This document shows positions 1,669-57,187 of a stretch of 64,000 bases of DNA, in pieces. The notes under the pieces were generated by a model. The model was not told where the DNA came from. It worked only from the letters and a program-made list of their open reading frames with translations, and ran no database searches. The stretch is from Azohydromonas caseinilytica. Lineage in GTDB: Bacteria > Pseudomonadota > Gammaproteobacteria > Burkholderiales > Burkholderiaceae_C. A program made the position numbers and the translations under genes. The DNA lies in assembly GCF_012927045.1 (NCBI RefSeq), contig NZ_JABBFW010000016.1:1-64000 (forward strand). The letters are read 5' to 3'. The number at the start of each line of letters is the position of its first letter. Within the stretch, counting starts at the first letter, position 1.

Positions 1669-1913
1669 GGCGATTCGGCCGGCGCCCAATGCCGGCTGGC
1701 GTTGACAAGACGGTGGAAGGGCTTGGTGCCCTCGGTGCGGCAAGGCGCCTGGTGCAGGTGGCCTGGCCCGGTAATGCGAAACGCCCCTTCAGTGCGGCTG
1801 CGGTTGGCGCCGGGCCATGCGGCTGACCGGCACACCCCGGTTGGCGTGAAGGGAAACAGGCTTCATGCGGGAGCTTGGGAGCTGCAAAGACATCAACGAC
1901 TGCGTATAGGAAA

Positions 1914-1928
1914 GATCGTATACGGTAG
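1914..1928. promoter_or_regulatory. Candidate GntR operator 1 (CGTATACG core)
   Basis: The 8-bp palindrome CGTATACG sits at 1917-1924 in the roughly 460-bp gap between gdhA and the divergent GntR gene. The same 8 bases recur at 2086-2093. FCD-type GntR regulators often bind GTATAC-centred palindromes, so this is a plausible operator. No other gene was seen in the gap (1669-2127), which is more A/T-rich than its surroundings. Confidence 0.45.
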
Positions 1929-2082
1929 ACGCATGTTTTGTGCCTAGGTGCAAACCACTATGCGCACCAACGAGGTGCTGGTTTGCAGCATTTGCTGGCG
2001 CCGAGTTGGTGAAGTGCTCCACCAAAGGCGCCGCAGCGGTGCGTGAGCACGTTGAAGTCCGGAGGCTCGGGGCATCTGGGAA

Positions 2083-2097
2083 TTTCGTATACGCTTC
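2083..2097. promoter_or_regulatory. Candidate GntR operator 2 (CGTATACG core)
   Basis: Second copy of CGTATACG, at 2086-2093, about 35 bp upstream of the GntR start. Its position suggests autoregulation, while the copy 169 bp away lies nearer to gdhA. Assignment rests on the repeated palindrome only. Confidence 0.45.
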
Positions 2098-2127
2098 GCC
2101 TCCGACTCCCGCTCCAAGGTGAACCCC

Positions 2128-2832
2128 GTGCCTCTTGACCTGAACGACGTCCCGAACCTGGGCCTGCCGCCCACGATCTCGGATGTCATTGCGAAGCACC
2201 TGCGCAACGCCATCGTCACGGGGCAACTGCACGAGGGCGAGCCGATCCGACAGGACGAGGTGGCCGCGATGTTCAAGGTCAGCAAGATCCCGGTGCGCGA
2301 GGCGCTGAAGCATCTGGAGGCCGAGGGCCTGGTCGCGTTCCAGCGCAACCGCGGCGCGGTGGTGCACAGCCTGTCGGAGTCCGAGATCGTGCAGATCTAC
2401 GAGGTGCGGGCGATGCTGGAGTCGAACGCGATGCGCCTGTCGGTGCCCAGGATGACCCCGGCGACGCTGGAGCGGGCGCAGCGGCTGTGCGACGAGTTCG
2501 CGCAGGAGCACGATCCTTTTCGCTGGGCCGAGCTGCACTGGGCTTTCCACTCCTGCCTGTACCAGGACGCGCAGCGGCCGTTCCTGATGAACCTGATCCA
2601 ATCCATCAACAACCGCACCGAGCGCTACCTGCACATCCAGCTGACCCGGGACGGCGGCCGGGACACGGCCGACACCGAGCACCAGGCGCTGGTGGATGCC
2701 TGCCGCCGCGACGACGCGGACGAGGCGGCCCGGCTGGTGCACGAGCACATCATGGCGGCCTGCGAGCTGCTGCGGCGCCATCTGCCCCAGCCGGACGCGC
2801 AGGACGGGGCGGCCGGCAAGGGCGGCGCGTAG
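2128..2832 (+). CDS. GntR family regulator, FCD (FadR/VanR) subfamily
   Basis: DNA-binding regulator of about 234 residues. The N-terminal winged helix is seen at residues 15-75 (GEPIRQDEVAAMFKVSKIPV, then REALKHLEAEGLV), and the C-terminal part from about residue 90 is an all-helical FCD ligand domain with conserved His residues (ELHWAFHSCLY; EHQALVDACRR). I prefer the GTG at 2128 because AAGGTGAA at 2116-2123 is well placed as ribosome site; the GTG at 2119 lies inside that motif. It is divergent from glutamate dehydrogenase and likely regulates itself and possibly gdhA through the CGTATACG sites. The effector is unknown; FCD regulators usually sense organic or amino acids. Confidence 0.85.
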   Translation: MPLDLNDVPNLGLPPTISDVIAKHLRNAIVTGQLHEGEPIRQDEVAAMFKVSKIPVREALKHLEAEGLVAFQRNRGAVVHSLSESEIVQIYEVRAMLESNAMRLSVPRMTPATLERAQRLCDEFAQEHDPFRWAELHWAFHSCLYQDAQRPFLMNLIQSINNRTERYLHIQLTRDGGRDTADTEHQALVDACRRDDADEAARLVHEHIMAACELLRRHLPQPDAQDGAAGKGGA

Positions 2833-2949
2833 CGTGCCCGAGGCCGCGGCCCGGCGCGCCGGCCGGCAGTCTGAAACGCTTGAGGGCATGGGGACTCGGG
2901 TCCGGGCAGGCAAGTTCACCGAAGGACCGCAACGATAGGGCCGGTGCTT

Positions 2950-2971
2950 CCGAATCTTTGTTCAAATTCGG
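2950..2971. promoter_or_regulatory. Inverted repeat CCGAAT-N10-ATTCGG upstream of lrp-like gene
   Basis: Perfect 6-bp arms separated by an A/T-rich 10-base centre, ending 25 bp before the Lrp-type start. The same half-site (CCGAA/TTCGG) forms a tighter palindrome upstream of putA at 3521-3535. This suggests a shared binding site for the Lrp-type protein. Confidence 0.4.
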
Positions 2972-2996
2972 CAGCTTCAGGCGAACAACTCTCTAC

Positions 2997-3476
2997 ATGC
3001 CCGACACCACTGAGCTGGACCGCATCGACCTCCTGATCCTCAGGACGCTGCAGGAGGACGGCCGCATGACCAATCTGAAGCTGGCCGAGGAGGTGGCGTT
3101 GTCGCCCACGGCCGTGCTGGCGCGGGTGCAGCGGCTCACGCGCGAGGGCTACATCCTGGGCTACGAGGCCCGGCTCAATCCGCTCAAGCTGCGCGCGGGC
3201 ATGCTGGTGTTCGTCGAGGTGCTGCTGGACAAGACCACGCCGCACATCTTCGAGCACTTCAAGGCGGCGGTGCAGGTGCACCAGCAGATCATGGAATGCC
3301 ACATGGTCGCCGGCGGCTTCGACTACCTGCTCAAGATCCGCTGCGCCGACATGGAGGCCTACCGCCATTTCGCCGGCACGGTGCTGTGGCTGCTGCCCGG
3401 CGTGCGCGAGACGCGCACCTACGCGGTCATGGAGGAGGTGAAGCACTCCACCCATCTCCCGCTGTCCGGGATGTGA
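2997..3476 (+). CDS. Lrp/AsnC family transcriptional regulator, probable regulator of putA
   Basis: 159-residue regulator. Residues 5-60 carry the Lrp helix-turn-helix (LDRIDLLILRTLQEDGRMTN; LAEEVALSPTAVLARVQRL) and the rest is the RAM/AsnC ligand domain, with VAGGFDYLLKIRCADMEAY as its core. The start is the ATG that opens the family-typical protein; longer frames would add unrelated arginine-rich sequence. It lies 137 bp upstream of putA on the same strand. Lrp-type activators next to proline or branched-chain amino-acid catabolic genes (PutR, BkdR) are well known, and this PutA has no DNA-binding domain of its own. Proline-responsive control of putA is therefore likely but inferred. Confidence 0.88.
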   Translation: MPDTTELDRIDLLILRTLQEDGRMTNLKLAEEVALSPTAVLARVQRLTREGYILGYEARLNPLKLRAGMLVFVEVLLDKTTPHIFEHFKAAVQVHQQIMECHMVAGGFDYLLKIRCADMEAYRHFAGTVLWLLPGVRETRTYAVMEEVKHSTHLPLSGM

Positions 3477-3520
3477 GCCTCGAACAAGCCACCAGCCATC
3501 CGGCCGTTGGCCGTGGGCTG

Positions 3521-3535
3521 CCGAAGAATATTCGG
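3521..3535. promoter_or_regulatory. 15-bp palindrome upstream of putA, candidate Lrp site
   Basis: CCGAAGAATATTCGG has 5-bp arms and a perfect GAATATTC centre, giving the 15-bp length and A/T-rich middle typical of Lrp sites. It lies about 80 bp before the putA start and shares its half-site with 2950-2971. Confidence 0.42.
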
Positions 3536-3613
3536 TGTGGCGACGTGGTTACGGTGAAAGATGCGGAGTGATTTGATCCACAGTCTTGTCATTGCGCTTT
3601 ACCCGCCCGTGAC

Positions 3614-6600
3614 ATGAACACCCCGTCCACCTCCCTGATCCCGTTTGCGGAATTCCTGCATCCCGTGGCCTTCGGCTCCGAGTTGCGCGAGGCCATCACG
3701 GCCGCCTGGCGCAAGCCGGAGGTCGAGGCGCTGCCGATGCTGGCCGAGCTGGCGCGGCTGCCCGCGCCGCTGAAGGCGCAGACGCAGGCGCTGGCCGCGC
3801 GCATCGCCTCGACGCTGCGCGACAGGAAGCCCTCCGCGGGCCGCGCCGGCCTGGTGCAGGGGCTGCTGCAGGAGTACGCGCTGTCGTCGCAGGAGGGCGT
3901 GGCGCTGATGTGCCTGGCCGAGGCGCTGCTGCGCATTCCGGACCGCGAGACGCGCGACGCGCTGATCCGCGACAAGATCTCGCGCGGCCAGTGGCACGCG
4001 CACCTGGGCAGGAGCCCGTCGCTGTTCGTCAACGCCGCCACCTGGGGCCTGCTGATCACGGGCCGGCTCACGGCCACGCACAGCGAGTCGGGGCTGTCGG
4101 CCGCGCTGGGGCGCATGGTGGCCGTGGGCGGCGAGCCGCTGATCCGCAAGAGCGTGGACATGGCCATGCGAGTGATGGGCGAGCAGTTCGTCACCGGCGA
4201 AACCATCGAGCAGGCGCTGGGCAACGCCCGCGTGCGCGAGGCCGAGGGTTTCAGATACTCCTACGACATGCTGGGCGAGGCGGCGCTGACGGCGCACGAC
4301 GCGCAGCGCTACCTGCAGTCCTACGAGCGCGCCATCCATGCCATCGGCAAGGCGTCAGCGGGGCGAGGCATCTACGAAGGGCCTGGCATCTCGATAAAAC
4401 TCTCGGCGCTGCACCCGCGCTACAGCCGCGCGCAGTACGACCGCGTCATGGACGAGCTCTACCCGGTGCTGCTGCGCCTGGCCGCGCTGGCCAAGCGCTA
4501 CGACATCGGCCTCAACATCGACGCCGAGGAGGCGGATCGGCTGGAGATCTCGCTGGACTTGCTGGAGCGGCTGTGCTTCGAGCCGACGCTCAAGGGCTGG
4601 AACGGCATCGGCTTCGTGATCCAGGCCTACCAGAAGCGCTGCCCCTACGTGATCGACTACATCATCGACCTGGCCCGCCGCAGCGATCGCCGGCTGATGA
4701 TCCGCCTGGTCAAGGGCGCGTACTGGGACTCCGAGATCAAGCGCGCCCAGCTCGACGGGCAGGACGGCTACCCGGTCTACACGCGCAAGCACCACACCGA
4801 CATCTCCTACGTTGCCTGCGCGCGCAAGCTGCTCTCCGCGCCGCAGCAGGTGTATCCGCAGTTCGCCACGCACAACGCGCACACGCTGGCGGCCATCTAC
4901 CACCTGGCCGACCCCGCGAGCTACCAGCCGGGGCAGTACGAGTTCCAGTGCCTGCACGGCATGGGCGAGCCGCTGTATGAGCAGGTGGTGGGCACCGGGG
5001 CGGGCAAGCTGGGCCGGCCCTGCCGCGTCTACGCGCCGGTGGGCACGCACGAGACGCTGCTGGCCTACCTGGTGCGGCGCCTGCTGGAGAACGGTGCCAA
5101 CACCTCCTTCGTCAACCGCATTGCCGACACCTCCATCTCCATCGACGAGCTGGTGCGCGACCCGATCGACGTGGCCGATGAGCTGGCGCAGAAGGAAGGC
5201 CGCTTCGGCCTGCCGCATCCGGCCATCCCGGCGCCGCGCGAGCTGTACGGCCCGACGCGCCCGAACTCGCGTGGCATCGACCTGAGCAACGAGCATGAGC
5301 TGGCCCGGTTGCAGGCCGCGCTGCGCGCCAGCGCCGCCGAAACCTGGACGGCCGAGCCGCTGCTGGCGGCCGGCACGGTGGCCGGCGCGCGCGAGGCGGT
5401 GCGCAACCCCGCCGACCATGGCGACGTGGTGGGCCACGTGCAGAACGCCACGGCCGAGCATGTGGACCTGGCCTTCGACCACGCCGCCGAGGCCGCGCCG
5501 CGCTGGGCGGCGACGCCGCCGGCCGCGCGCGCCGACATGCTCGACCGCGCCGCGAACCGGCTGGAAGAGGACATGCCGCGCCTGATGGGCCTGCTCATCC
5601 GCGAGGCGGGCAAGACGGCGGCCAACGCCATTGCCGAGGTGCGCGAGGCGGTGGACTTCCTGCGCTACTACGCGCGCCAGGTCCGCAGCGATTTCCAGCC
5701 CGGCTCGCATGTGCCGGTCGGCCCGGTGGTGTGCATCAGCCCCTGGAATTTCCCGCTGGCCATCTTCATGGGGCAGGTGTCGGCGGCGCTGGCCGCGGGC
5801 AACCCGGTGCTGGCCAAGCCGGCCGAGCAGACGCCGCTGATCGCCGCCGAGGCCGTGCGCGCGCTGTGGGCCGCGGGCGTGCCGCGCGACGTGCTGCAGT
5901 TCCTGCCCGGCGCGGGCGAGGTGGTGGGCGCGCGCCTGGTGGGCGACGCGCGCGTGCGCGGCGTGCTGTTCACGGGCTCGACCGAGGTCGCGCGCATCCT
6001 GCAGCGCGCCGTGTCCGGCCGGCTCGATGCCAACGGGCGTCCCATCCCGCTGATCGCCGAGACCGGTGGCCAGAACGCGATGATCGTGGACTCCTCGGCC
6101 CTGGCCGAGCAGGTGGTGGCCGACGTGCTGGCCTCCGCCTTCGACAGCGCCGGCCAGCGCTGCTCGGCGCTGCGCGTGCTGTGCGTGCAGGAGGACTTGG
6201 CGGACCGCCTGATCGAGATGCTGCTGGGCGCCATGGCCGAGTGGCGCGTCGGCAGCCCGGACCGGCTCGCGGTGGACGTGGGCCCGGTGATCGATGCGGA
6301 GGCCCTGGCCGGCATCGAGAAGCACGTCGAAGGCATGCGCGCCAAGGGCCGCCGCGTGCACCAACTCGGCGCCTGCGACGCGGCCGTGCTGCGGCGGGGT
6401 ACCTTCATGCTGCCCACGGTGATCGAGCTGGAGCAGCTGTCGGAGCTGCAGCGCGAGGTGTTCGGCCCGGTGCTGCACGTGATCCGTTACCAGCGCGACG
6501 ATCTGGACGCGCTGCTGGCGCAGATCAACGCCACGGGCTATGGCCTCACGCTGGGCCTGCACACCCGCATCGACGAGACCATCGGCCGGGTGCTGAAGGC

Positions 6601-39732: not shown

Positions 39733-42897
<3,165 letters not shown>

Positions 42898-42907
42898 GGG
42901 AGCCGCC

Positions 42908-45967
<3,060 letters not shown>

Positions 45968-46056
45968 GCGGTGGCCGGGAGATGTGCATGGGAGGCCGCC
46001 GCGACGGCCCCGGCGCGCACGGATGGCGTGGGAGGCTGGGGTGCGGGGCGGCGGGG

Positions 46057-47094
46057 TCAGGGAGCGGCGGAGTCCAGGGCCCGGGCCCTGGAGCCGGCGT
46101 CGCCGCCGATCAGGTTCTCGTGCGCCACCACGCGGGCGCGTCCGTCGTGCTTGGCCTGGAACAGCGCCCGGTCCGCCAGTTCGACCAGGTGTTCCGGCGC
46201 CGCCAGGCAACGCTCGAAACGCGGGCAGTCCCGGCAGGGCGCGCGGCACCCGGCCGGCGTCTCGCAGGGCCGGCGCAGCGTGGCCGCGCCGATGCTCACC
46301 GTCACGCACGGCCCCACCGGCGAGGCGCCGTGCGGCAGGGCCCGCCCGCGCACGGCCTCGCACAGGCGTTGGGCGAAGGCCTGCGCCCGCGCGGCAGCGG
46401 CATGGGGCAGGATCACCGCGAACTCCTCGCCGCCGTAGCGCGCGGCCAGGTCGCCGCTGCGGCGCGTGCTCCCGGCAATGAGCTCGGCCACCTGGCGCAG
46501 GCAGGCGTCGCCGGCGCGGTGGCCGTGGGCGTCGTTGTAGCGCTTGAAATGGTCGATATCGATCATCAGCAGCGATATCGCGTGCTGGTGGCGCATGGCG
46601 CGCAGCCACTCCTTCCTGAGCGTGTCGTCGAAGGCGCGGCGGTTGGCGATGCCGGTGAGCGGGTCCACCACCGAGAGCCGGCGCAGCGCGTCCGTCTTCT
46701 GCTTGAGCGCCAGGTGCGTGCGCACGCGCGCGCGCACCACCGGCGGATTGATGGGCTTGTGGATGAAGTCCACCGCGCCGATGTCCAGCGCGTGCGTCTC
46801 GGTCTCGGTGTCGGTGAAGGCGGTGACGAAGATCACCGGCACGTCGGCGCTGCGCGGATCGGCCTTGAGGCGCAGGCAGGTGTCGAAGCCGCTGAGCCCG
46901 GGCATGTGCGCGTCCAGCAGCACCAGGTCGGGCTGATGCGCCTGGAACTGCTGCAGCGCGGCCTCGCCGCTGGTGGCGAAGACGATGCGGGCCTCGGCTT
47001 CGAGCACCCGGCTCAGCAGCAGGATGGAGCCCGGGTCGTCATCGACGACCAGCAGGCAGGGCAAGGCGGGCACGGGGCGTTGTTCTTCGGGCAT
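46057..47094 (-). CDS. Receiver-GGDEF response regulator (diguanylate cyclase) with Cys-rich insertion
   Basis: 345-residue response regulator of PleD/WspR type. The receiver has the acidic cluster VVDDD, phospho-acceptor Asp in [10 protein letters not shown] and Lys in IHKPINP. The GGDEF domain starts at [15 protein letters not shown] and has an intact GGEEF at 221-225, so cyclic-di-GMP synthesis is expected. Between SIGAAT and the last helix ([15 protein letters not shown]) is an insertion with five cysteines at 277, 283, 287, 290 and 296, arranged C-x5-C-x3-C-x2-C-x5-C, which could bind zinc or an iron-sulphur cluster. It lies 89 bp upstream of the CHASE3 hybrid kinase on the same strand, its likely phosphodonor. 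Confidence 0.92.
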
Positions 47095-48776: not shown

Positions 48777-49445
48777 TCACCCGGCCCGGTGCGCGCTGCA
48801 CACGGTGGGCGCCACCAGGCACGCCAGCCCCGCCAGCGGCAGCAGCGGCCAGGCCGCCGAGCCCAGCGCCGCCAGCGTCAGCGCCTCCACCGCGCACCAC
48901 AACAGCGGCAAGGGCAGCAGCCAGCGCCGCGCGCGGGCCGTGGCCAGCGGCGCCAGCGCCAGCATCGCCAGCACGGTGGGCGCGGGCATCAGGCCCGGCA
49001 CCTCGGCGCGCCACCACGACGCGCCCGTCAGCGGCGCCAGCAGCGGCCAGCCCACGAGCGCCAGCGCCAGCAGCATCAGGGCCGCGGCACGGGCGCGCGG
49101 CGCGGGCAACGGCTGGAAGGCATTGCGCCGCGCCAGCACCGCCAGCAGCAACGCCTGCCACGAGAAACCCACGGCCATGGCCGGCGCGCCCCAGTGGATC
49201 TGCGCGTAGCGCAGGTGGAAGAAGTCCCAGGCCAGGCCGATGCACCACAGCGCGGCCAGCGCCGCCAGGGCCCGCGCCGCCCAGGACACGCGCCGCAGCA
49301 GCGCCAGCCACAGCACCGCGCCGCAGGCCAGGTCGAGCCACTGCGCCGGCCACAGCGCGCGGTTGTGGGCCTCCACCAGCCGCGCGTAGGTGCGCGCCGA
49401 GAAGAGCTGGAAGTCGGCCGGGGCGTAGGTCCACCACTCCGGCAT
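48777..49445 (-). CDS. DUF6064 family integral membrane protein
   Basis: 222-residue membrane protein with about six hydrophobic helices. The N-terminus MPEWWTYAPADFQLFSARTY and the following block AHNRALWPAQWLDLACGA match DUF6064 proteins, whose role is unknown. Its ATG overlaps the stop codon of the aldo/keto reductase (TGATG type), so the two are translated together. The ParE gene converges from the other side. Confidence 0.85.
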   Translation of the reverse strand: MPEWWTYAPADFQLFSARTYARLVEAHNRALWPAQWLDLACGAVLWLALLRRVSWAARALAALAALWCIGLAWDFFHLRYAQIHWGAPAMAVGFSWQALLLAVLARRNAFQPLPAPRARAAALMLLALALVGWPLLAPLTGASWWRAEVPGLMPAPTVLAMLALAPLATARARRWLLPLPLLWCAVEALTLAALGSAAWPLLPLAGLACLVAPTVCSAHRAG

Positions 49446-50377
49446 CACAGCGCCTGCACGTGGGCCGCGATGCGCTGGCGCAGCGCCGCGTCGGGCAGCC
49501 GGCCGGTGGCGGCGGCCAGGTTCTCGCGCACATGCGCCACCTGGGTCGTGGCCGGGATCACGCAGGTCACGGCCGGGTGCGACACGATGAACTTCAGCAC
49601 CAGCTGCGCCCAGCTGGTGGCGCCCAGCTCCGAGGCGGCCCAGGCCGGCACCGGGTGGCGCGCCAGCCGCCGCAGCAGCTCGCCCTGCTGGAAGGGCCGG
49701 TTGACGATGACGCCGATGCCGCGCTCGGCCGCCAGCGGCAGCAGCCGCTGCTCGGCCTCGCGGTCCACGGGGTTGTAGGTGAACTGCACGAAGTCCAGCG
49801 GCCGGCTCGCCATCACGCGCTCGAACTCGGCGTGGCGCCGGCCCTCGCTGGTGGTGATGCCCACGTAGCGCAGCCGCCCGGCGGCCTTCATGCGCTGCAG
49901 CATGGGCAAATGCTCCTCCCAGGCCAGGAGGTTGTGCACCTGCAGCAGGTCCAGGCGCGGCAGGCCCCAATAAGCGCGCGAGGTCTCGACCTGCGCCGGC
50001 CCGTCCTTGCCGCTGCCGGTCCAGACCTTGTCGGCGGCGAAGACGCGGTCACGCGCCCCCAGCGTGCGCAGCGTATGGCCCACCACCTCCTGCGCGGAGC
50101 CGTACATGGGCGAGGAGTCGATGAGCCGGCCGCCGCCGGCCAGGAAGGCTTCCACCACGCGGGTGCATTCCTCGCGCAGCTCGGCGTCGCGCCCGACGTT
50201 GAAGGTGATCCAGGTGCCCAGCCCGACCACGGGCAGCCGCTCGCGGCTGGAGGGAATGGGGCGCAGCGGCAGCGCCGCGACCGGCTGGGCCGGGGCGGCG
50301 GATGCGAGCAGGCCCGCGCCCAGGCCCGCGAGCCGGGCCAGCGCGCGGCGGCGTCCAGACAGCATCCGATGGTTCAT
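49445..50377 (-). CDS. Exported aldo/keto reductase
   Basis: 310-residue NADPH-type oxidoreductase fold with a twin-arginine-like leader (SGRRRALARLAGLGAGLLAS, cleavage near APA). Catalytic residues are in place: Asp in GGGRLIDSSPMYGSAQ with Tyr, Lys in VFAADKVW and His in LDLLQVHNLL. The cofactor region near the end (IPATTQVAHVRENLAAA) is also kept. Aldo/keto reductases with export signals recur in Proteobacteria although pyridine nucleotides are scarce in the periplasm; Tat would allow folding with cofactor first. It is translationally coupled to the DUF6064 membrane protein, hinting at a partnership. Confidence 0.87.
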   Translation of the reverse strand: MNHRMLSGRRRALARLAGLGAGLLASAAPAQPVAALPLRPIPSSRERLPVVGLGTWITFNVGRDAELREECTRVVEAFLAGGGRLIDSSPMYGSAQEVVGHTLRTLGARDRVFAADKVWTGSGKDGPAQVETSRAYWGLPRLDLLQVHNLLAWEEHLPMLQRMKAAGRLRYVGITTSEGRRHAEFERVMASRPLDFVQFTYNPVDREAEQRLLPLAAERGIGVIVNRPFQQGELLRRLARHPVPAWAASELGATSWAQLVLKFIVSHPAVTCVIPATTQVAHVRENLAAATGRLPDAALRQRIAAHVQAL

Positions 50378-50446
50378 GCGGGCGAGCATCCCATGCGGGC
50401 GGCCGGCGCGGTGTTGCTGGGGTTGCCGCGTCGGGACGGCCCGCGC

Positions 50447-50785
50447 TCAGCGCGGGCAGTCCCCGCGGAGCACCACCGTGCCGTCCCGGCACTCGGTGAT
50501 GACCTCCCGGCGCCGCGGCGCGGGCGGTGCGGCCTCGCGCGGCGCGGCGCCGGCTTCCGGCACGCCGGCCTGCACCACCACGATCTTCCTGCTGCCCTGG
50601 GCGCAGCGGCCCACCACGCGGCCGGGCACGTCGGCGTCCATGTCCACGATGGCGAGCCGGGTGCCGCCGATGCCGTTGGCGCGGAACTTGGCCGCGATCT
50701 CGGCCTGGATCTCCTCGCAGTTGCTGGCCCGGGCGGCCCCTCCCGCCAGCAGCAGCGCCAAAGCGGCCAGGGTCGGCTTCAACAT
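50447..50785 (-). CDS. DUF1161 family periplasmic protein
   Basis: 112-residue protein with a Sec signal peptide (MLKPTLAALALLLAGGAARA) and the DUF1161 start NCEEIQAEIAAKFRANGIGG. A second conserved part lies at the end (ITECRDGTVVLRGDC) after a Pro/Ala/Arg-rich linker. The conserved cysteines probably form disulphides. Family function is unknown. It is divergent from the kinase-like gene at 50,926. Confidence 0.85.
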   Translation of the reverse strand: MLKPTLAALALLLAGGAARASNCEEIQAEIAAKFRANGIGGTRLAIVDMDADVPGRVVGRCAQGSRKIVVVQAGVPEAGAAPREAAPPAPRRREVITECRDGTVVLRGDCPR

Positions 50786-50925: not shown

Positions 50926-52746
50926 ATGTCCAGCACCGAAGCCCTGCCCGCCCCGCGCAGCACCCGGCAGCCCGAGCGGCTGCGCGAGATGCTGGTGCTC
51001 GTTGCCGGTGGCGTGCTGATGCTGGCGCTGAGCCTGACCTCGGCGCTGATGCTGTGGCGCCAGCGCGAGGACGCGCTCGCCACCTGGCGGCTGTACATGG
51101 ACAACTACTCGGCCACCGTGGCCGAGCATGCGCGGCAGGTGGTGCGCACCGCCAACACCGCGCTGGGCAGCGTGGTGGAGCAGGTGCAGGCGCAGGACGG
51201 CGACAGCGAGGCGCGGCTGCGCGAGATCGCCGGCACGCGGCGCATGTTCGATTTCCTGCGCGAGCGCCGCGTCGAGGCCGGGCTGGCCGGCGACGTGGCG
51301 GTGGTGGACCTGCAGGGGCAGATCCTGGTCAACAGCCAGGCCTTCCCGCCGCCGCATGTCAACGTGCACGACCGCGACTATTTCAAGGCGCACCTGGCGC
51401 AGCCGGCGCTGGAGACCTTCGTTTCCGCCCCCGTGCTCAGCCGCGACACCGGGCGCTGGACCTTCTTCCTGTCGCGCAAGATCCGCTCGCGCTCCGGGCA
51501 CACGCTGGGGCTGGCGATCACGGGCGTGGAGGTGGCGTATTTCGACCGCTTCTACGGCTCCATCAACCTCAGCCCCGAGCACACCGCCATCCTGCTGCTG
51601 CGCCGCGACGGCACGCTGCTGGTGCGCCACCCGCAGCGCCCCGGCGCCATGACCGCCTCCTACCGCGACGGGCCGGCGCTGCGCGCGCTGACCGAGGCGC
51701 TGCTGCAGGGACGCCGCAGCGTGAGCCTGTACACCGAGACGCTGCGCGCCGCTGACCCCGGCGAGGCCGATGCCCGGCTGGCGGTGGCGCAGGCGCTGGA
51801 CGATTACCCGCTGGCCGTGATCACCACCGTCACGGAGACGCTGATGCTGCGCGCCTGGCGCCAGACGGCCTGGCTGGTCGGCCTGGGTACCCTGGCGCTC
51901 GATGCCGTGATCGCCGCCCTGGCGCTGTGGACCTACGTGGTGCTGCGCCGCCGCCGCGCGGCCATCCGGGAGCTGGCCACCGCCAACCGCGAGAAGACCG
52001 AGTTCCTTTCCACCATCAGCCAGGAGATCCGCGCCCCGCTGCACGGGCTGCTGGGCATGACGCGGCGCCTGGCGGCGGCGCTGCCGCCGCTGGGGGCGCA
52101 GCGCAAGGAGCTGCAGGCCATGGAGCGCTCGAACCGGCTGCTGCTGGCGCTGGTGGACGACCTGCTCGATTACGCGCGGCTGGAGGCCGGCCGCCTGGAG
52201 CTGGAGCGCGTGCCCTTCACGCTGGCGGCGGTGGCGCAGGAGTGCGTCGGGCTGTTCGAGGCCGAGGCCCGCGCCAAGGGCCTGAAGCTGGAGCTGTACA
52301 TGGGCGCGGCGGCCAGCGGCGCGCCGGTGCTGGGCGATCCCGTGCGGCTGGCGCAGATCCTCCACAACCTGCTGTCCAACGCGCTGCGCTTCACGCTCTC
52401 GGGCAGCGTGGCGCTGGGCATCGTGCCGCTGGGCCCCGGGCGCTGGCGGCTCACCGTCACCGACACCGGCGTGGGCATGACCACGCAGCAGCGCCGGCGC
52501 ATCTTCGAGCCCTTCACGCGCGCCGAGGGCGCGCCGGCGCAGGGCGGCGGCGGCATCGGGCTGGGCCTGTCCATCGTCAAGCGGCTGGTGCAGCTGCACG
52601 GCGGCACGCTGGGCGTGAGGAGCGAGCCCGGCCAGGGCAGCGAGTTCTGGTGCGAGCTGCCGCTGCCGCCGGCACCGGCCGAGGCGGTGGCGGCCCAGAC
52701 ACACGCAGAGGCGAAGGTGGATGCCGAGGAGCGTGCGCCGGGGTGA
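50926..52746 (+). CDS. Membrane histidine-kinase-like protein with Gln replacing the phospho-acceptor His
   Basis: 606-residue protein. Helix 1 (MLVLVAGGVLMLALSLTSALM, about 22-42), a Cache/PDC-type periplasmic sensor to about 305 and helix 2 (TAWLVGLGTLALDAVIAALAL) precede the kinase core. The HisKA motif reads FLSTISQEIRAPLHG, where families have SHEIRTPLNG: the codon at 52021-52023 is CAG, so residue 366 is Gln instead of His. The ATPase domain is intact (HNLLSNALRFT, VTDTGVGMT, GGGIGLGLSI). There is no receiver. It is therefore a probable pseudokinase, regulatory partner, or a kinase using another residue. Confidence 0.9.
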   Translation: MSSTEALPAPRSTRQPERLREMLVLVAGGVLMLALSLTSALMLWRQREDALATWRLYMDNYSATVAEHARQVVRTANTALGSVVEQVQAQDGDSEARLREIAGTRRMFDFLRERRVEAGLAGDVAVVDLQGQILVNSQAFPPPHVNVHDRDYFKAHLAQPALETFVSAPVLSRDTGRWTFFLSRKIRSRSGHTLGLAITGVEVAYFDRFYGSINLSPEHTAILLLRRDGTLLVRHPQRPGAMTASYRDGPALRALTEALLQGRRSVSLYTETLRAADPGEADARLAVAQALDDYPLAVITTVTETLMLRAWRQTAWLVGLGTLALDAVIAALALWTYVVLRRRRAAIRELATANREKTEFLSTISQEIRAPLHGLLGMTRRLAAALPPLGAQRKELQAMERSNRLLLALVDDLLDYARLEAGRLELERVPFTLAAVAQECVGLFEAEARAKGLKLELYMGAAASGAPVLGDPVRLAQILHNLLSNALRFTLSGSVALGIVPLGPGRWRLTVTDTGVGMTTQQRRRIFEPFTRAEGAPAQGGGGIGLGLSIVKRLVQLHGGTLGVRSEPGQGSEFWCELPLPPAPAEAVAAQTHAEAKVDAEERAPG

Positions 52747-52800: not shown

Positions 52801-55200
52801 TCAATGCCGCGCCTTCTGCATCCACCAGCCCTTGAACTCCTCGGCCGGCAGCGGGCGGCTGATGCAGTAGCCCTGCGCCATGTCGCAGGCCAGCGCATCG
52901 AGCCGGGTGAGCGTGGCCTGGTCCTCCACGCCCTCGGCGATCACGCTCAGGCCCAGGCTGTGCGCGAGCTCGATGGTGGAGTGCACGATGGCCTCGCAGC
53001 CCTGGTCGCGCTGCATGCCGTGCACGAAGGACTGGTCGATCTTGAGCGTGTCCACCGGCAGCTGGCGCAGGTAGGCCAGCGAGGAATAGCCGGTGCCGTA
53101 GTCGTCGATGGCCAGGCGCAGCTCCAGCCGCTTGAGCCGCGAGAGCGTCTCCAGCGCCGCGGTCGGGTCCAGCATCAGCGCGCTCTCGGTGAGCTCGAAC
53201 TCGATCCACCCCGGCTCGGCGCCCCAGGTGGCCAGCGCCCCTTCCACGCGCTCCAGCAGCTTGGGGTCGTGCAGGTCGCGTGCCGAGAGGTTGATGGACA
53301 GCGGCTGCCACTCGCCCTGCTCGTGCCAGGCGTAGAGCTGGCGCAGCGCGGCATCGAGCATCCAGTAGGTCAGCGGCGTGATCAGTCCGGTGTTCTCGGC
53401 GTGCTTGATGAAGTCGCCCGGGCTGACCATCCCCAGGCGCGGATGCTTCCAGCGCACCAGCGCCTCCGCGCCGCAGACCCGGCCCGACTTCACCTGCAGC
53501 TTGGGCTGGCACCAGAGCATGAGCTCGTCGCGCTCGATGGCGCCGCGCAGCTCGCTCATGAGCGCCATGCGCCGCGCGCACTCGCGGTCCAGCCCGCCCT
53601 TGAACAGCGCCACCGAGTTGCCCGAGCCGCGGGCCTGCGTCAGCGCGATACCGGCGCGGCGCATGAGCGCATCGGCGTCGGTGCCGTGGCCGGGGAACAG
53701 GCTCAGGCCCACGCTGGCGCGCGCGTCGAGCAGCAGGCCCTGGATCTCGATGGGCTCGTACAGCGCCGTCAGCAGCCGGTGCGCCAGGGCCCGGGCGGGC
53801 TCGGCGCCGGCGCGCGGCAGCAGCACCGCGAACTCGGCTTCCAGCAGCCGGCCCAGCTGCCCGGCCGCGCCCACGGCCTGCTCCAGCCGCTGCGCCACGG
53901 CGTGCACGAAGGCGTCCACCTCGGCGCTGCCCAGCGTCTCGTTGATGTCGCGGAAATGCTCCAGGCCCACGCGCAGGAAGGCCAGCGGCCGGTGCTCGCG
54001 CCGCGCCGCGGCGATGGCCTCCTCCAGCAGCGCGCGCAGCCGCTCGCGGTTGGGCAGCCCGGTGACGGCATCGGTCAGCGCCAGGCGCCGCAGCCGCTCT
54101 TCCGCCGCCGCGGCGCGCACGCGCTGGCGCAGCGCGCCCAGGCCATAGCCCAGGTCGGCGGTGGTGGCCAGCAGTAGCTCGACTTCCTGGGCGTCGAAGG
54201 CGTCGGCGTCCAGCGCCACGATGTGCAGCGAGCCCGCCAGCGCGCCCTCCACGCTCAGCGGCAGCACCACCACCGCGCCGTAGCCGCGCTCGCGCGCCTC
54301 CTCCGGGAAGGGATAGGCGGCGTTGCGCGCGAGCTCGCGCAGGATCACCGGGCCGCCGCCGCGCAGCCGCCGCACCACCGCGCGCGCGGCCTCCGTGGCG
54401 CCCCAGCGCCGGCGCGGCGCCATCTGCACCTCGCCGCAGCCGGCCTGCGCCATGGGCCGCAGGCCGCCGTCGTCGTCCAGGTAGGCGATCCAGGCCAGCT
54501 CGTAGCGGCAGTCGTCCACCACCACGCGGCAGAGCTCGTGCAGCAGCGCCGTCTCGTCCTGCGCCTGCGCCAGCGCGCGGTTGACCGAGGCGCGCGTGCG
54601 CAGCGCGCGGTGCAGGCGCCGCAGCTCGCCCTCGGCCTGCTCGCGGTGCTGGCGCAGGCGCAGCACCTCCAGGCCGAAGGCCAGGTCGTCGGCCACCTCG
54701 TCGAGCACCTGGCGCTCGGAGCCGTTGAAGGCGTCCGTCTCCGGCGCCGCGATGGTCAGCGCGCCGAAGACCTCGCCCTGGATGCGCAGCGGCAGCGACA
54801 GCAGCGAGCCGATGCCGTGGCGGCGGCAGAAGTCGCGCCACAGCGGCGGAAACGGCTCGTCCAGCGCGTCGCGGATCACGCAGGGCCGGCCGCTGCGGAT
54901 GGCCTGGCCCGTGGCGCTGCCGCCCTGCTCGGTGTCGCTCCAGCGCAGGGCCGCGACCTCGGCCGCCTCGGGGTCCAGCCCGGCCTGGGCCAGCACCGTC
55001 ACGCTCTGCTGCGCGTCATGCTCGGCGCGCCCGATGCGCGCCAGCCGGTAGCCGGCCTCCTCGACCACGAGGCGGCAGACCTCGCGCAGCAGCGAGGGCT
55101 CGTCCGTGGCGCGCAGCAGCGCGCGGTGGCAGCCGCTGAGCGTGCGCAGGGCGCGCGCGAGGCGTTCGTACTCTTCGGTGCCGGAGCCGTTGCTTGCCAT
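52801..55200 (-). CDS. GAF-GAF-degenerate GGDEF-EAL protein, probable cyclic-di-GMP phosphodiesterase
   Basis: 799-residue cytosolic protein, start MASNGSGTEEYERL at 55200. Two GAF domains (about 20-180 and 205-375) precede a GGDEF domain whose active site is LEAEF at 453-457, so no cyclase activity is expected; it may still bind GTP. The EAL domain is intact: AEALVRWKHP, SINLSARDL, FELTESALM, IDDYGTGYSSLAYLRQLPVD, and KIDQSFVHGM followed by AEGVED. This predicts hydrolysis of cyclic-di-GMP, gated by ligands of the GAF domains. It is convergent with the kinase-like gene and divergent from HipBA. Confidence 0.93.
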   Translation of the reverse strand: MASNGSGTEEYERLARALRTLSGCHRALLRATDEPSLLREVCRLVVEEAGYRLARIGRAEHDAQQSVTVLAQAGLDPEAAEVAALRWSDTEQGGSATGQAIRSGRPCVIRDALDEPFPPLWRDFCRRHGIGSLLSLPLRIQGEVFGALTIAAPETDAFNGSERQVLDEVADDLAFGLEVLRLRQHREQAEGELRRLHRALRTRASVNRALAQAQDETALLHELCRVVVDDCRYELAWIAYLDDDGGLRPMAQAGCGEVQMAPRRRWGATEAARAVVRRLRGGGPVILRELARNAAYPFPEEARERGYGAVVVLPLSVEGALAGSLHIVALDADAFDAQEVELLLATTADLGYGLGALRQRVRAAAAEERLRRLALTDAVTGLPNRERLRALLEEAIAAARREHRPLAFLRVGLEHFRDINETLGSAEVDAFVHAVAQRLEQAVGAAGQLGRLLEAEFAVLLPRAGAEPARALAHRLLTALYEPIEIQGLLLDARASVGLSLFPGHGTDADALMRRAGIALTQARGSGNSVALFKGGLDRECARRMALMSELRGAIERDELMLWCQPKLQVKSGRVCGAEALVRWKHPRLGMVSPGDFIKHAENTGLITPLTYWMLDAALRQLYAWHEQGEWQPLSINLSARDLHDPKLLERVEGALATWGAEPGWIEFELTESALMLDPTAALETLSRLKRLELRLAIDDYGTGYSSLAYLRQLPVDTLKIDQSFVHGMQRDQGCEAIVHSTIELAHSLGLSVIAEGVEDQATLTRLDALACDMAQGYCISRPLPAEEFKGWWMQKARH

Positions 55201-55332
55201 GGAAAACCTCCGCGGGGCACATGGCCGTGATGCCGTCTGCTGCTCTACCGCATCCACGGCCCGGCGTCAGGGGCGCCAAGGGGCCAGCTTGATACACATT
55301 GTTTTCCCGGCCCGGTCTCGCAGGCCGCTTTC

Positions 55333-55348
55333 ACAAGCCCAGGCTTGT
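55333..55348. promoter_or_regulatory. HipB operator candidate 1 (ACAAGCC-N2-GGCTTGT)
   Basis: Perfect 7-bp arms with a CA spacer, 65 bp upstream of hipB. An identical pair of arms recurs at 55387-55402, centre-to-centre 54 bp, about five helical turns. A -10-like TATATT at about 55373-55378 lies between the two. Confidence 0.7.
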
Positions 55349-55386
55349 AGCGCGCGTTCATAAGCCATGCCCTATATTTCACGTTT

Positions 55387-55402
55387 ACAAGCCTGGGCTT
55401 GT
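55387..55402. promoter_or_regulatory. HipB operator candidate 2 (ACAAGCC-N2-GGCTTGT)
   Basis: Same arms as copy 1, spacer TG, 10 bp upstream of the hipB start. With copy 1 it brackets the presumed promoter, the arrangement used by HipB-type repressors to bend DNA and shut their own operon. Confidence 0.7.
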
Positions 55403-55412
55403 ATCATGGACC

Positions 55413-55862
55413 ATGGCAGAGCGCAGCTATCCCATTCGCTTTCCGGACCAATGGCGCCAACACCTGCGGGCGTTGCGAAAAAGCCGCCAAGTGACCCAGG
55501 CCCAATTGGGCGTTTTGCTGGGTGTCAGCCAGGCACGCATTGCGGAAATCGAGGCCAATCCCGCGGCTGTCAGCGTCGAGCAACTGATGAAAATACTTTC
55601 AGTGCTGGACGCCACCATGATGCTGCAGGAAGAAATCCCAAGCCCTCCTGCCCAGGCCGGCACCAAGACCGACGACCCGCCACCGCACGGCACACCCCTC
55701 GCCGCCAACCTTCCCTTGGAAAGCGCCACGCCGCCATTATCGGCGCGAAGCATGGTTATTCCTCGTCAAGCTGAAGCCACGGCCCCTTCACCTCCTGAAA
55801 AAGCCACCTCATCGACTCCTAAAAGAAAGCTGATGCTTCGCTCCAGGAAAGGATCGTGGTGA
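55413..55862 (+). CDS. hipB: HipB-type antitoxin, Xre helix-turn-helix
   Basis: 149-residue protein. The Xre helix-turn-helix is at about 18-70: WRQHLRALRKSRQVTQAQLG, then VLLGVSQARIAEIEANPAAV and SVEQLMKILSVLDATMMLQE. After this comes an unusually long, Pro/Ala/Thr-rich tail ending in a basic stretch (PKRKLMLRSRKGSW); E. coli HipB has only 88 residues. The ATG at 55413 is two bases past a CATGG motif and just after the second palindrome. It overlaps hipA by 7 bp and should repress the operon through the twin palindromes while neutralising HipA. Confidence 0.85.
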   Translation: MAERSYPIRFPDQWRQHLRALRKSRQVTQAQLGVLLGVSQARIAEIEANPAAVSVEQLMKILSVLDATMMLQEEIPSPPAQAGTKTDDPPPHGTPLAANLPLESATPPLSARSMVIPRQAEATAPSPPEKATSSTPKRKLMLRSRKGSW

Positions 55863-57187
55863 CGCAGGTACTGGGCGCATGGATGAATGGGGAGCTCGTC
55901 GGCACCTGGACGGTGGAACGAGGCACTCACGTCTTCAGATATGAGGCAGCCTGGAAAAAATCATCCCGCTGCAGGTCCCTCTCGCTGTCCTTGCCCCTCA
56001 CCGGTGCCAAGGAAATAAAGGGCGACTTGGTCAGAAATTATTTCGACAACTTATTGCCGGACAGCGAAAAAATACGCCAGCGCCTGGGCAGGCGCTTCAA
56101 GACACCAACCGCAGAAGTTTTTGACCTGCTTGAAGCCATTGGGCGCGACTGTGTTGGCGCCGTCCAGTTGCTGCCACCGGGCGAAAGTCCTGAAGACTGG
56201 AAACGAGTCGAATGCGAGCACCTGTCCGAGCAAGACATCGTGGATCTGCTGCAGGCCGTTCCCTCGGAGCTCACTCCTGAAGGCATGGAGGACGATGACC
56301 TGTTCCGCATCTCGATGGCCGGCGCCCAGGAAAAGACGGCGCTGACCCGCTGGCAGGGCGCCTGGTGCCGCCCTCATGGCGCCACACCGAGTACCCATAT
56401 CTTCAAACTGCCGCTGGGCCTGATCGGCGGGTCCAGGCGGGTCGATGCCTCGGATTCCGTACAAAACGAATGGCTGTGCGCAAAGATCCTTGAAGCATTG
56501 GGTTTGCCCATGGCGTCAACGTCCATGGAAACCTTCGGTGAACAAACTGTCCTGATCGTCGAGCGATTCGACCGCGAATGGCAAGACGACGGCACCTGGA
56601 TTGCCCGTCTGCCGCAGGAGGATTTTTGCCAGGCCCTCGGATTTGCGCCCAGCCAGAAATATGAAGCAGAGGGTGGTCCGGGCATGGCCAAATGCCTGCA
56701 GCTTCTGCAGGGCAGCCGGGACAAGGACGATCCCGCCTTTTTCCTGCTCACTCAACTGACTTTCTTCCTGCTGGCCGCCACGGACGGCCATGCCAAGAAT
56801 TTCTCAATATATTTGGAGCAGGGCGACCACTACAGGATGACGCCGCTGCACGACGTCTTGTCGATGTGGCCTTATTTCGGCGACGCGCCCAGCCAGTTCA
56901 AGCGGCACAGGGCTGGGCTCGCCATGACACTGCGCTCCAAGAACCCTCACAAATACTTCCACACCATCGAAGCCCGCCACTGGCGGCAACTCGCGCTGAA
57001 AAATGGCGGCCCGGCGGTTTGGGAAGCGATGCAGGCCCTGGTGGAAGGCGTGGACGACGCGCTGCACGAGGTCCAAACCCAGTTGCCGCCCAATTTCCCG
57101 GAAAGAACCTGGACTGCCATCTCCACGGGCATGAAGTCGGAAGCGAACCGATTCATGTCCGAAGCCGAGGGCTTGCCTCCCGCCTGA
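55856..57187 (+). CDS. hipA: HipA-type serine/threonine kinase toxin
   Basis: 443-residue kinase. The N-terminal subdomain-1 block (LGAWMNGELVGTWTVERGTH) leads to the kinase fold: the ATP loop region ISMAGAQEKTALTRW, catalytic Asp310 in ATDGHAKNFSI and metal-binding Asp in TPLHDVLSMWP. HipA toxins phosphorylate aminoacyl-tRNA synthetases such as GltX and cause growth arrest. A GTG start at 55856 or 55859 overlaps the hipB stop. The whole module is visibly lower in G/C than the genes on both sides, which points to horizontal arrival. Confidence 0.9.
   Translation: MVTQVLGAWMNGELVGTWTVERGTHVFRYEAAWKKSSRCRSLSLSLPLTGAKEIKGDLVRNYFDNLLPDSEKIRQRLGRRFKTPTAEVFDLLEAIGRDCVGAVQLLPPGESPEDWKRVECEHLSEQDIVDLLQAVPSELTPEGMEDDDLFRISMAGAQEKTALTRWQGAWCRPHGATPSTHIFKLPLGLIGGSRRVDASDSVQNEWLCAKILEALGLPMASTSMETFGEQTVLIVERFDREWQDDGTWIARLPQEDFCQALGFAPSQKYEAEGGPGMAKCLQLLQGSRDKDDPAFFLLTQLTFFLLAATDGHAKNFSIYLEQGDHYRMTPLHDVLSMWPYFGDAPSQFKRHRAGLAMTLRSKNPHKYFHTIEARHWRQLALKNGGPAVWEAMQALVEGVDDALHEVQTQLPPNFPERTWTAISTGMKSEANRFMSEAEGLPPA

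Follow-up and report, generated by a model that had tools for sequence, protein, structure and literature searches.

The gene at positions 50926–52746 of the window, the whole 64,000-nucleotide stretch of Azohydromonas caseinilytica DNA analysed here, encodes a histidine kinase homologue in which glutamine occupies the phospho-acceptor position. With a probability of roughly 0.55, we consider this protein to be a pseudokinase receptor that has no enzymatic role and acts through contact with an active kinase related to it. The acceptor histidine, the threonine associated with phosphatase action, the ATP-lid signature of its hybrid relatives and a receiver domain are all missing from it. Orthologues found in the same place in three other Azohydromonas species carry different residues at the acceptor position, and the gene is under purifying selection.

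Architecture of the receiver-less Cache kinase

The gene, its parts and the two conserved genes beside it are located in the window as follows.

49445–50389, − strand: aldo/keto reductase gene, the following member of the neighbourhood shared by all four species
50447–50785, − strand: divergent DUF1161 gene, adjacent to the clade A gene in each of the four species
50926–52746, + strand: receiver-less dCache-HisKA-HATPase gene for the predicted pseudokinase, 'clade A', 606 aa (sequence, Pfam)
50989–51057, + strand: first membrane helix, approximate (by eye; within AlphaFold2 helix 14–89)
51058–51864, + strand: double-Cache sensor, residues 45–313, approximate borders (Pfam; match to 3lif)
51865–51945, + strand: second membrane helix, approximate (by eye; within AlphaFold2 helix 309–385)
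51994–52191, + strand: HisKA/DHp domain, residues 357–422 (Pfam, genome family search)
52021–52023, + strand: Gln366 (CAG), phospho-acceptor position (sequence, alignment)
52033–52035, + strand: Ala370 (GCC), replacing the phosphatase Thr/Asn of H-E/D-x-x-T/N (sequence; role of the residue as described in PMC3510030)
52333–52668, + strand: HATPase_c domain, residues 470–581 (Pfam; boxes kept in four orthologues)
52516–52557, + strand: ATP-lid stretch, residues 531–544, without the STTRRFGG signature of the hybrids (alignment; pLDDT <50)

The protein encoded by this frame reads FLSTISQEIRAPLHG. Its HisKA (50.3 bits) and HATPase_c (105 bits) domains both scored above the Pfam cut-offs, and the sensor matched dCache_1_like above the cut-off (40.3 bits) and dCache_1 below it (38.3 bits). 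No Pfam match to a receiver (Response_reg) was found in the protein. The acceptor site lies in the context ISQEIRAPLHG, with Gln as residue 366. An AlphaFold2 model (mean pLDDT 81, lid below 50) had a normal kinase fold made up of the sensor, the DHp helices and the ATPase domain, a fold that carries no information on activity. GacS (7z8n), RetS and DivL were among the closest structures, both by sequence and by fold, and the solved sensor 3lif matched the sensor part of the protein by the same two measures. The sensor, the membrane helices and the dimerising fold are retained, and the DHp-CA module is otherwise complete with its catalytic residue(s) absent.

Three related kinases in each of four Azohydromonas genomes

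The genome was compared with those of A. australica DSM 1124, A. aeria CFCC 13393 and A. lata NBRC 102462. Each of the four contained three close full-length relatives, namely a hybrid kinase with a receiver (H), the clade A gene and a second receiver-less gene (clade B; L032, at 438271–440025 on contig C12, in A. caseinilytica, and L031, L034 and L036 in the others). The canonical hybrid H of A. caseinilytica is on contig C3. Clade A was represented by full-length open frames in all four species. A receiver was present in the four hybrids and in none of the eight A and B proteins.

A midpoint-rooted tree of the kinase cores, in which the acceptor column was included, placed A and B each in a single clade with full support. 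Together with H and three further cores, all from PAS-type hybrids with receivers, they formed one fully supported set, while the branching among A, B and H was weak (92/20). The presence of receivers beside the nearest outside cores suggests that this domain was lost from A and B.

The clade B genes had a HAD hydrolase gene and an mfd-type helicase gene as neighbours in all four species. In A. caseinilytica the clade B gene is arranged tail to tail with a gene for a PP2C phosphatase-Ser/Thr protein kinase fusion (L050, 6510–8246, + strand), and close matches to this fusion adjoin clade B in A. australica and A. lata. For the hybrid H of A. caseinilytica, none of the neighbours had a match of more than 50% identity in the stretches around H of the other three genomes.

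Loss of the acceptor histidine and the phosphatase threonine

In a census of HisKA domains in the A. caseinilytica genome, scoring of all 134 candidates yielded 107 matches, and every matching stretch was read; one match ends at a contig end before the acceptor site, leaving 106 that could be scored. The acceptor was His in 104 of the 106 and Gln in two, the window gene and its clade B paralogue on contig C12. This confirmed the substitution of Gln for the acceptor His (CAG at 52021–52023) reported in the preliminary description. The probability that both exceptions would fall within one three-member family is 0.0005, a post hoc figure. In A. lata, where 150 of 169 candidates were scored, His was found in 132 of 134 HisKA matches, and the exceptions were Gly in the clade A orthologue and Gln in a third Cache kinase of more distant relationship. 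This distant kinase is also receiver-less, reads SQELRTP at the site and is encoded at L045 (G003:C113), 1911–3728, + strand. All four non-His HisKA domains in the two genomes that the census covered, with matches somewhat biased to His because the family model rewards it, belong to receiver-less Cache kinases.

A wider sample of 46 loci, picked by similarity to the window protein and not a census, included eight with a non-His residue at the aligned acceptor position, six of them from Azohydromonas. The other two indicate that loss of His is not limited to the genus.

The acceptor codon of clade A is CAG (Gln) in the window, CGC (Arg) in A. australica, GGC (Gly) in A. lata and CAT (His) in A. 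aeria. In clade B it is CAG (Gln) in A. caseinilytica, CAA (Gln) in A. aeria and CAC (His) in both A. australica and A. lata, and in hybrid H it is CAC (His) in all four species. The Gln whose conservation among homologues had been in question was therefore found in place in only this one of the four species, the in-place orthologues having Arg, Gly and His, and the homologues in that place are not all His-bearing. Either three losses of His or one loss followed by a regain in A. aeria would give this pattern. By our own count on the kinase-core tree, loss and regain takes two steps vs three for separate losses, counts that rest on four sequences, and a regain of His in A. aeria would require restoration of the Thr as well.

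At the +4 position of the HExxT motif, the three His-less clade A proteins have Ala and the A. aeria protein has Thr (SHEIRTP). Among the 104 His-bearing domains of A. caseinilytica the residue was T in 59, N in 31, Q in 7, S in 3, G in 2 and A in 2. Experiments on CrdS and its relatives, as described in PMC3510030, found the Thr/Asn of H-E/D-x-x-T/N to be required for phosphatase action. According to the same source, CrdS and its relatives lost kinase action and showed a modest drop in phosphatase action when the His was changed to Ala, a change that abolished both actions in PleC. As the window protein is without both the His and the Thr, these experiments lead us to predict that it has neither kinase nor phosphatase action. 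The change is thus larger than the loss of a single residue first described, as Thr370 has become Ala and the lid signature and receiver are missing too. The designation as a pseudokinase is well supported by the sequences, given that the in-place orthologues have Gln, Arg, Gly or His at the acceptor and that the phosphatase Thr is lost in the three that are His-less.

In clade B the phosphatase Thr is kept in three of four proteins and is Met in A. australica. The two His-less members of clade B, in which the Thr is kept, might still be phosphatases.

A kinase that uses another residue had been offered as an alternative, and it gained no positive support. Examination of the H box by eye revealed no phosphate-accepting residue that is both new in and common to the three His-less orthologues. 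All 12 aligned relatives, even the hybrids, have Ser365 next to the acceptor site, so this residue gives no sign of an acceptor switch, although it is a conceivable acceptor.

The ATP-binding site

All four clade A proteins retain N485, D513xG515xG517 and G545LGL548. None of the eight A and B proteins, the His-bearing ones included, has the ATP-lid signature found in the hybrids (QADSSTTRRFGGSG, and QSDSSTTRRFGGSG in the A. lata hybrid). In the window protein N480 is replaced by His and K488 by Arg, both at positions that are invariant in the hybrids. The ATPase motifs, at first described as intact, are so at the conserved residues listed above but not in the lid or at positions 480 and 488. 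Binding of ATP by the clade A protein is possible, and an ATP-dependent activity of the window protein is conceivable, as its HATPase_c domain still scores 105 bits. In clade B, the A. australica protein has lost its F and G2 boxes and the A. lata protein has a damaged G2 box.

Selection and constraint

Codon models applied to the four clade A genes gave omega values of 0.19 for the whole gene, 0.17 for the sensor, 0.14 for the DHp and 0.20 for the CA domain, compared with 0.15 for hybrid H (DHp 0.07) and approximately 0.16–0.17 for clade B, all of which are rough because the synonymous distances are large and each set comprises four sequences. An omega of 1 was rejected for clade A both over the whole gene (2dlnL 284) and in the DHp (2dlnL 44), with kappa taken from a five-value grid under omega = 1.

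Between-species identity, computed on columns without gaps in all 12 sequences, was 66% for the sensor, 60% for the DHp and 68.5% for the CA domain in clade A. The corresponding values were 73, 74 and 64% in clade B and 62, 88 and 72% in H. The acceptor-bearing helices are the best-conserved part of the hybrid and the least-conserved part of A, and the difference of differences (DHp minus sensor, A minus H) was −0.32 (bootstrap interval −0.43 to −0.21). As the clade A DHp is least conserved yet under purifying selection, a loss of phosphotransfer with a structural role kept would fit better than neutral decay.

Neighbourhood and candidate partners

Two hybrid kinases in the window, at 39733 and 42908, had been put forward as partners, and both are weak candidates on the sequence comparisons. 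The hybrid at 39733–42897 is a distant full-length relative of the window protein (31% identity), and close relatives of this hybrid exist in the other three genomes. In A. aeria the counterpart was found as two pieces at two contig starts, one of these contigs carrying gene A, and the two may be neighbours there. The best match in A. australica was on a contig other than that of gene A, and the A. lata counterpart is at a contig start, where its place is not readable. The hybrid at 42908–46609, on the − strand, is a CHASE3-PAS kinase with a receiver and an Hpt domain (six Pfam families). No whole-length match to its CHASE3-PAS part was found in the other three Azohydromonas genomes, which leaves little to favour it as a conserved partner. 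The best match to this part, 60% over 190 residues (query 133–322), was in A. australica, on the contig of the clade A orthologue and approximately 28 kb away from it.

There is no response regulator gene directly beside the gene at 50926–52746 in the window. The nearest, approximately 4 kb away, is a response-regulator GGDEF gene (46057 to ~47070) that is real by Pfam. A receiver remnant beside the window gene was considered and rejected, the only good match in the locus being this same GGDEF gene. In A. australica, a gene for a receiver/winged-helix response regulator (L047, 10058–10840, + strand) was found tail to tail with the clade A orthologue.

The GAF-GGDEF-EAL gene at 52801–55257 is also real by Pfam. 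EAL genes found near the A. australica and A. aeria orthologues were 38% identical to it and on the opposite side, and the contig of the A. lata orthologue, at 4,251 bases, is too short to show an EAL neighbour. The cyclic-di-GMP setting described earlier thus holds for the window, where the GGDEF genes are real, but the cyclic-di-GMP neighbours of the clade A gene vary by species. As the EAL genes found near these orthologues encode other proteins and occupy the opposite flank, conservation gives no support to a specific cyclic-di-GMP link, which appears doubtful. Further along the window (55299–57187, + strand), an HTH gene is followed by a HipA-like gene, a pair of the toxin-antitoxin type. 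The third-position G+C of the HipA frame is 0.73, low for the window, and the frame may have been acquired.

Comparison with known systems

A literature search on histidine-kinase pseudokinases found few, DivL and RetS foremost, and in a search for Azohydromonas with 'histidine kinase' the genus name was a single mention per paper. The sensor of RetS is a 7TMR-DISM domain, and the window protein differs from it in having a dCache sensor. RetS of Pseudomonas aeruginosa is likewise a sensor-kinase homologue with a degenerate HATPase that controls GacS by contact. Three mechanisms are described for it, namely a receiver phosphate sink, an HExxT-dependent transmitter phosphatase and inhibition of autophosphorylation by the catalytic core (PMC5992135). 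The receiver domains and HExxT motif of RetS account for the first two (PMC5992135), and the window protein has neither, with QEIRA at the motif and no Response_reg match, so that only the third mechanism could apply to it.

DivL of Caulobacter is, like the window protein, a HisKA-HATPase protein with the acceptor His replaced, and PMC4211667 describes it as being without kinase and phosphatase activity and as modulating another pathway. It differs in having Tyr550 at the acceptor and a PAS input domain (PMC4211667), where the window protein has Gln366 and dCache. The role of DivL is common to Caulobacterales and Rhizobiales according to PMC9430884, whereas the clade A residue varies among close species. 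A ChrS variant of Corynebacterium glutamicum is a further inactivated sensor kinase that alters signalling via its paralogue, though its origin was an ATPase-domain frameshift during laboratory evolution and its His is retained; a mixed dimer was observed for the native kinases and not for the truncated one (PMC9491836).

Unusual acceptor sites were also seen elsewhere. A multi-PAS hybrid kinase from another genus of the family (L148, 5662–8970, − strand, G020) reads SDEIRAP, with an Asp acceptor, Ala at +4 and a receiver present. In a dCache-HATPase-receiver protein (L026, 1411–3684, + strand, G061) no HisKA was found by Pfam, the aligned acceptor is Tyr (NYEARQQ) and HATPase_c scored just under the cut-off; this is perhaps another pseudokinase.

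Proposed role and alternative explanations

The most likely ancestor of clade A would be a Cache-sensor hybrid histidine kinase, from which the receiver, the acceptor His and the phosphatase Thr would then have been lost. The protein's retention would rest on the sensor and the dimerising helices, and perhaps also on nucleotide binding. A Cache signal could be passed by contact to a related active kinase, in a mixed dimer or a larger complex, and the contact would raise or lower autophosphorylation of the partner. The first candidate partner would be H, the family's canonical hybrid, encoded on contig C3, as it is related across the whole length of the sensor and DHp. In A. aeria, which keeps SHEIRTP, a kinase is still conceivable, and the function may differ among the four species. 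A broader arrangement, which we judge to be unlikely, is a three-member receptor set derived from one ancestor, in which two catalytically dead Cache receptors, with acceptor sites at liberty to vary, are wired through mixed dimers to the hybrid or to each other and add contact-only inputs to one phosphorelay. In such a set the window protein would act without a phosphate sink or a phosphatase.

An acceptor that is different in each species, in the least-conserved domain of the protein, might also be seen if the receiver-less copy were redundant, with its kinase function drifting in a slow decay that the frame has survived for now, and the ATP site of the related clade B is indeed more eroded, to the point where A. 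australica has lost the F and G2 boxes. This is a serious alternative but a rather improbable one, as the frames are full-length, open and in a fixed place in all four species, and omega (0.14–0.20) is far below 1 in every domain tested. That the sequencing or the assembly is at fault, or that a single strain has newly mutated, seems scarcely credible. The assembly is a draft of 98 contigs, CAG is one base from CAC and Gln is in place in one species only, but two of the three in-place orthologues are His-less as well, through other codons (Arg CGC, Gly GGC), and the nearby Thr is Ala in the same three His-less proteins.

The retention of N485, D513xG515xG517 and G545LGL548 in every clade A member, together with the HATPase_c score of the window protein, would be consistent with an ATP-dependent kinase that forms a mixed dimer with a partner kinase and phosphorylates the partner's His, and is thus an activator and not a decoy. 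The loss of the hybrid lid signature from all four clade A members, and the changes at N480 and K488 in the window protein, make such an activity distinctly unlikely. A split kinase, in which A and B form mixed dimers with one giving the ATP-binding domain and the other the His, is suggested by A. australica and A. lata, where A has the ATP-site boxes and no His and B has the His and a damaged G2 box, and by the presence of both genes in all four genomes. However, both A and B have Gln in A. caseinilytica and the arrangement is reversed in A. aeria, so that a split kinase is tenable in at most two of the four species, the window's own not among them, and we regard it as very unlikely. A contact-acting pseudokinase receptor is the explanation that we favour.

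Pseudokinases among the histidine kinases are a known kind. What is new here is a natural series of acceptor residues within one orthologue group, and a specific prediction of action by contact only. The variation at the acceptor is more interesting than an accident in a single strain, and it indicates that His is not required in clade A. As the counterparts in sister species lost the His in different ways, this variable loss suggests that the protein has been retained not for enzymatic activity but to serve other kinases as a receptor or partner. With four close species showing His, Gln, Arg and Gly at the acceptor position and an intact hybrid relative alongside, clade A offers a natural series for the study of the role that remains to a sensor kinase without the ability to phosphorylate. 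It is also a clean test case for whether one kinase can control another by contact alone, without a phosphate sink or a phosphatase.
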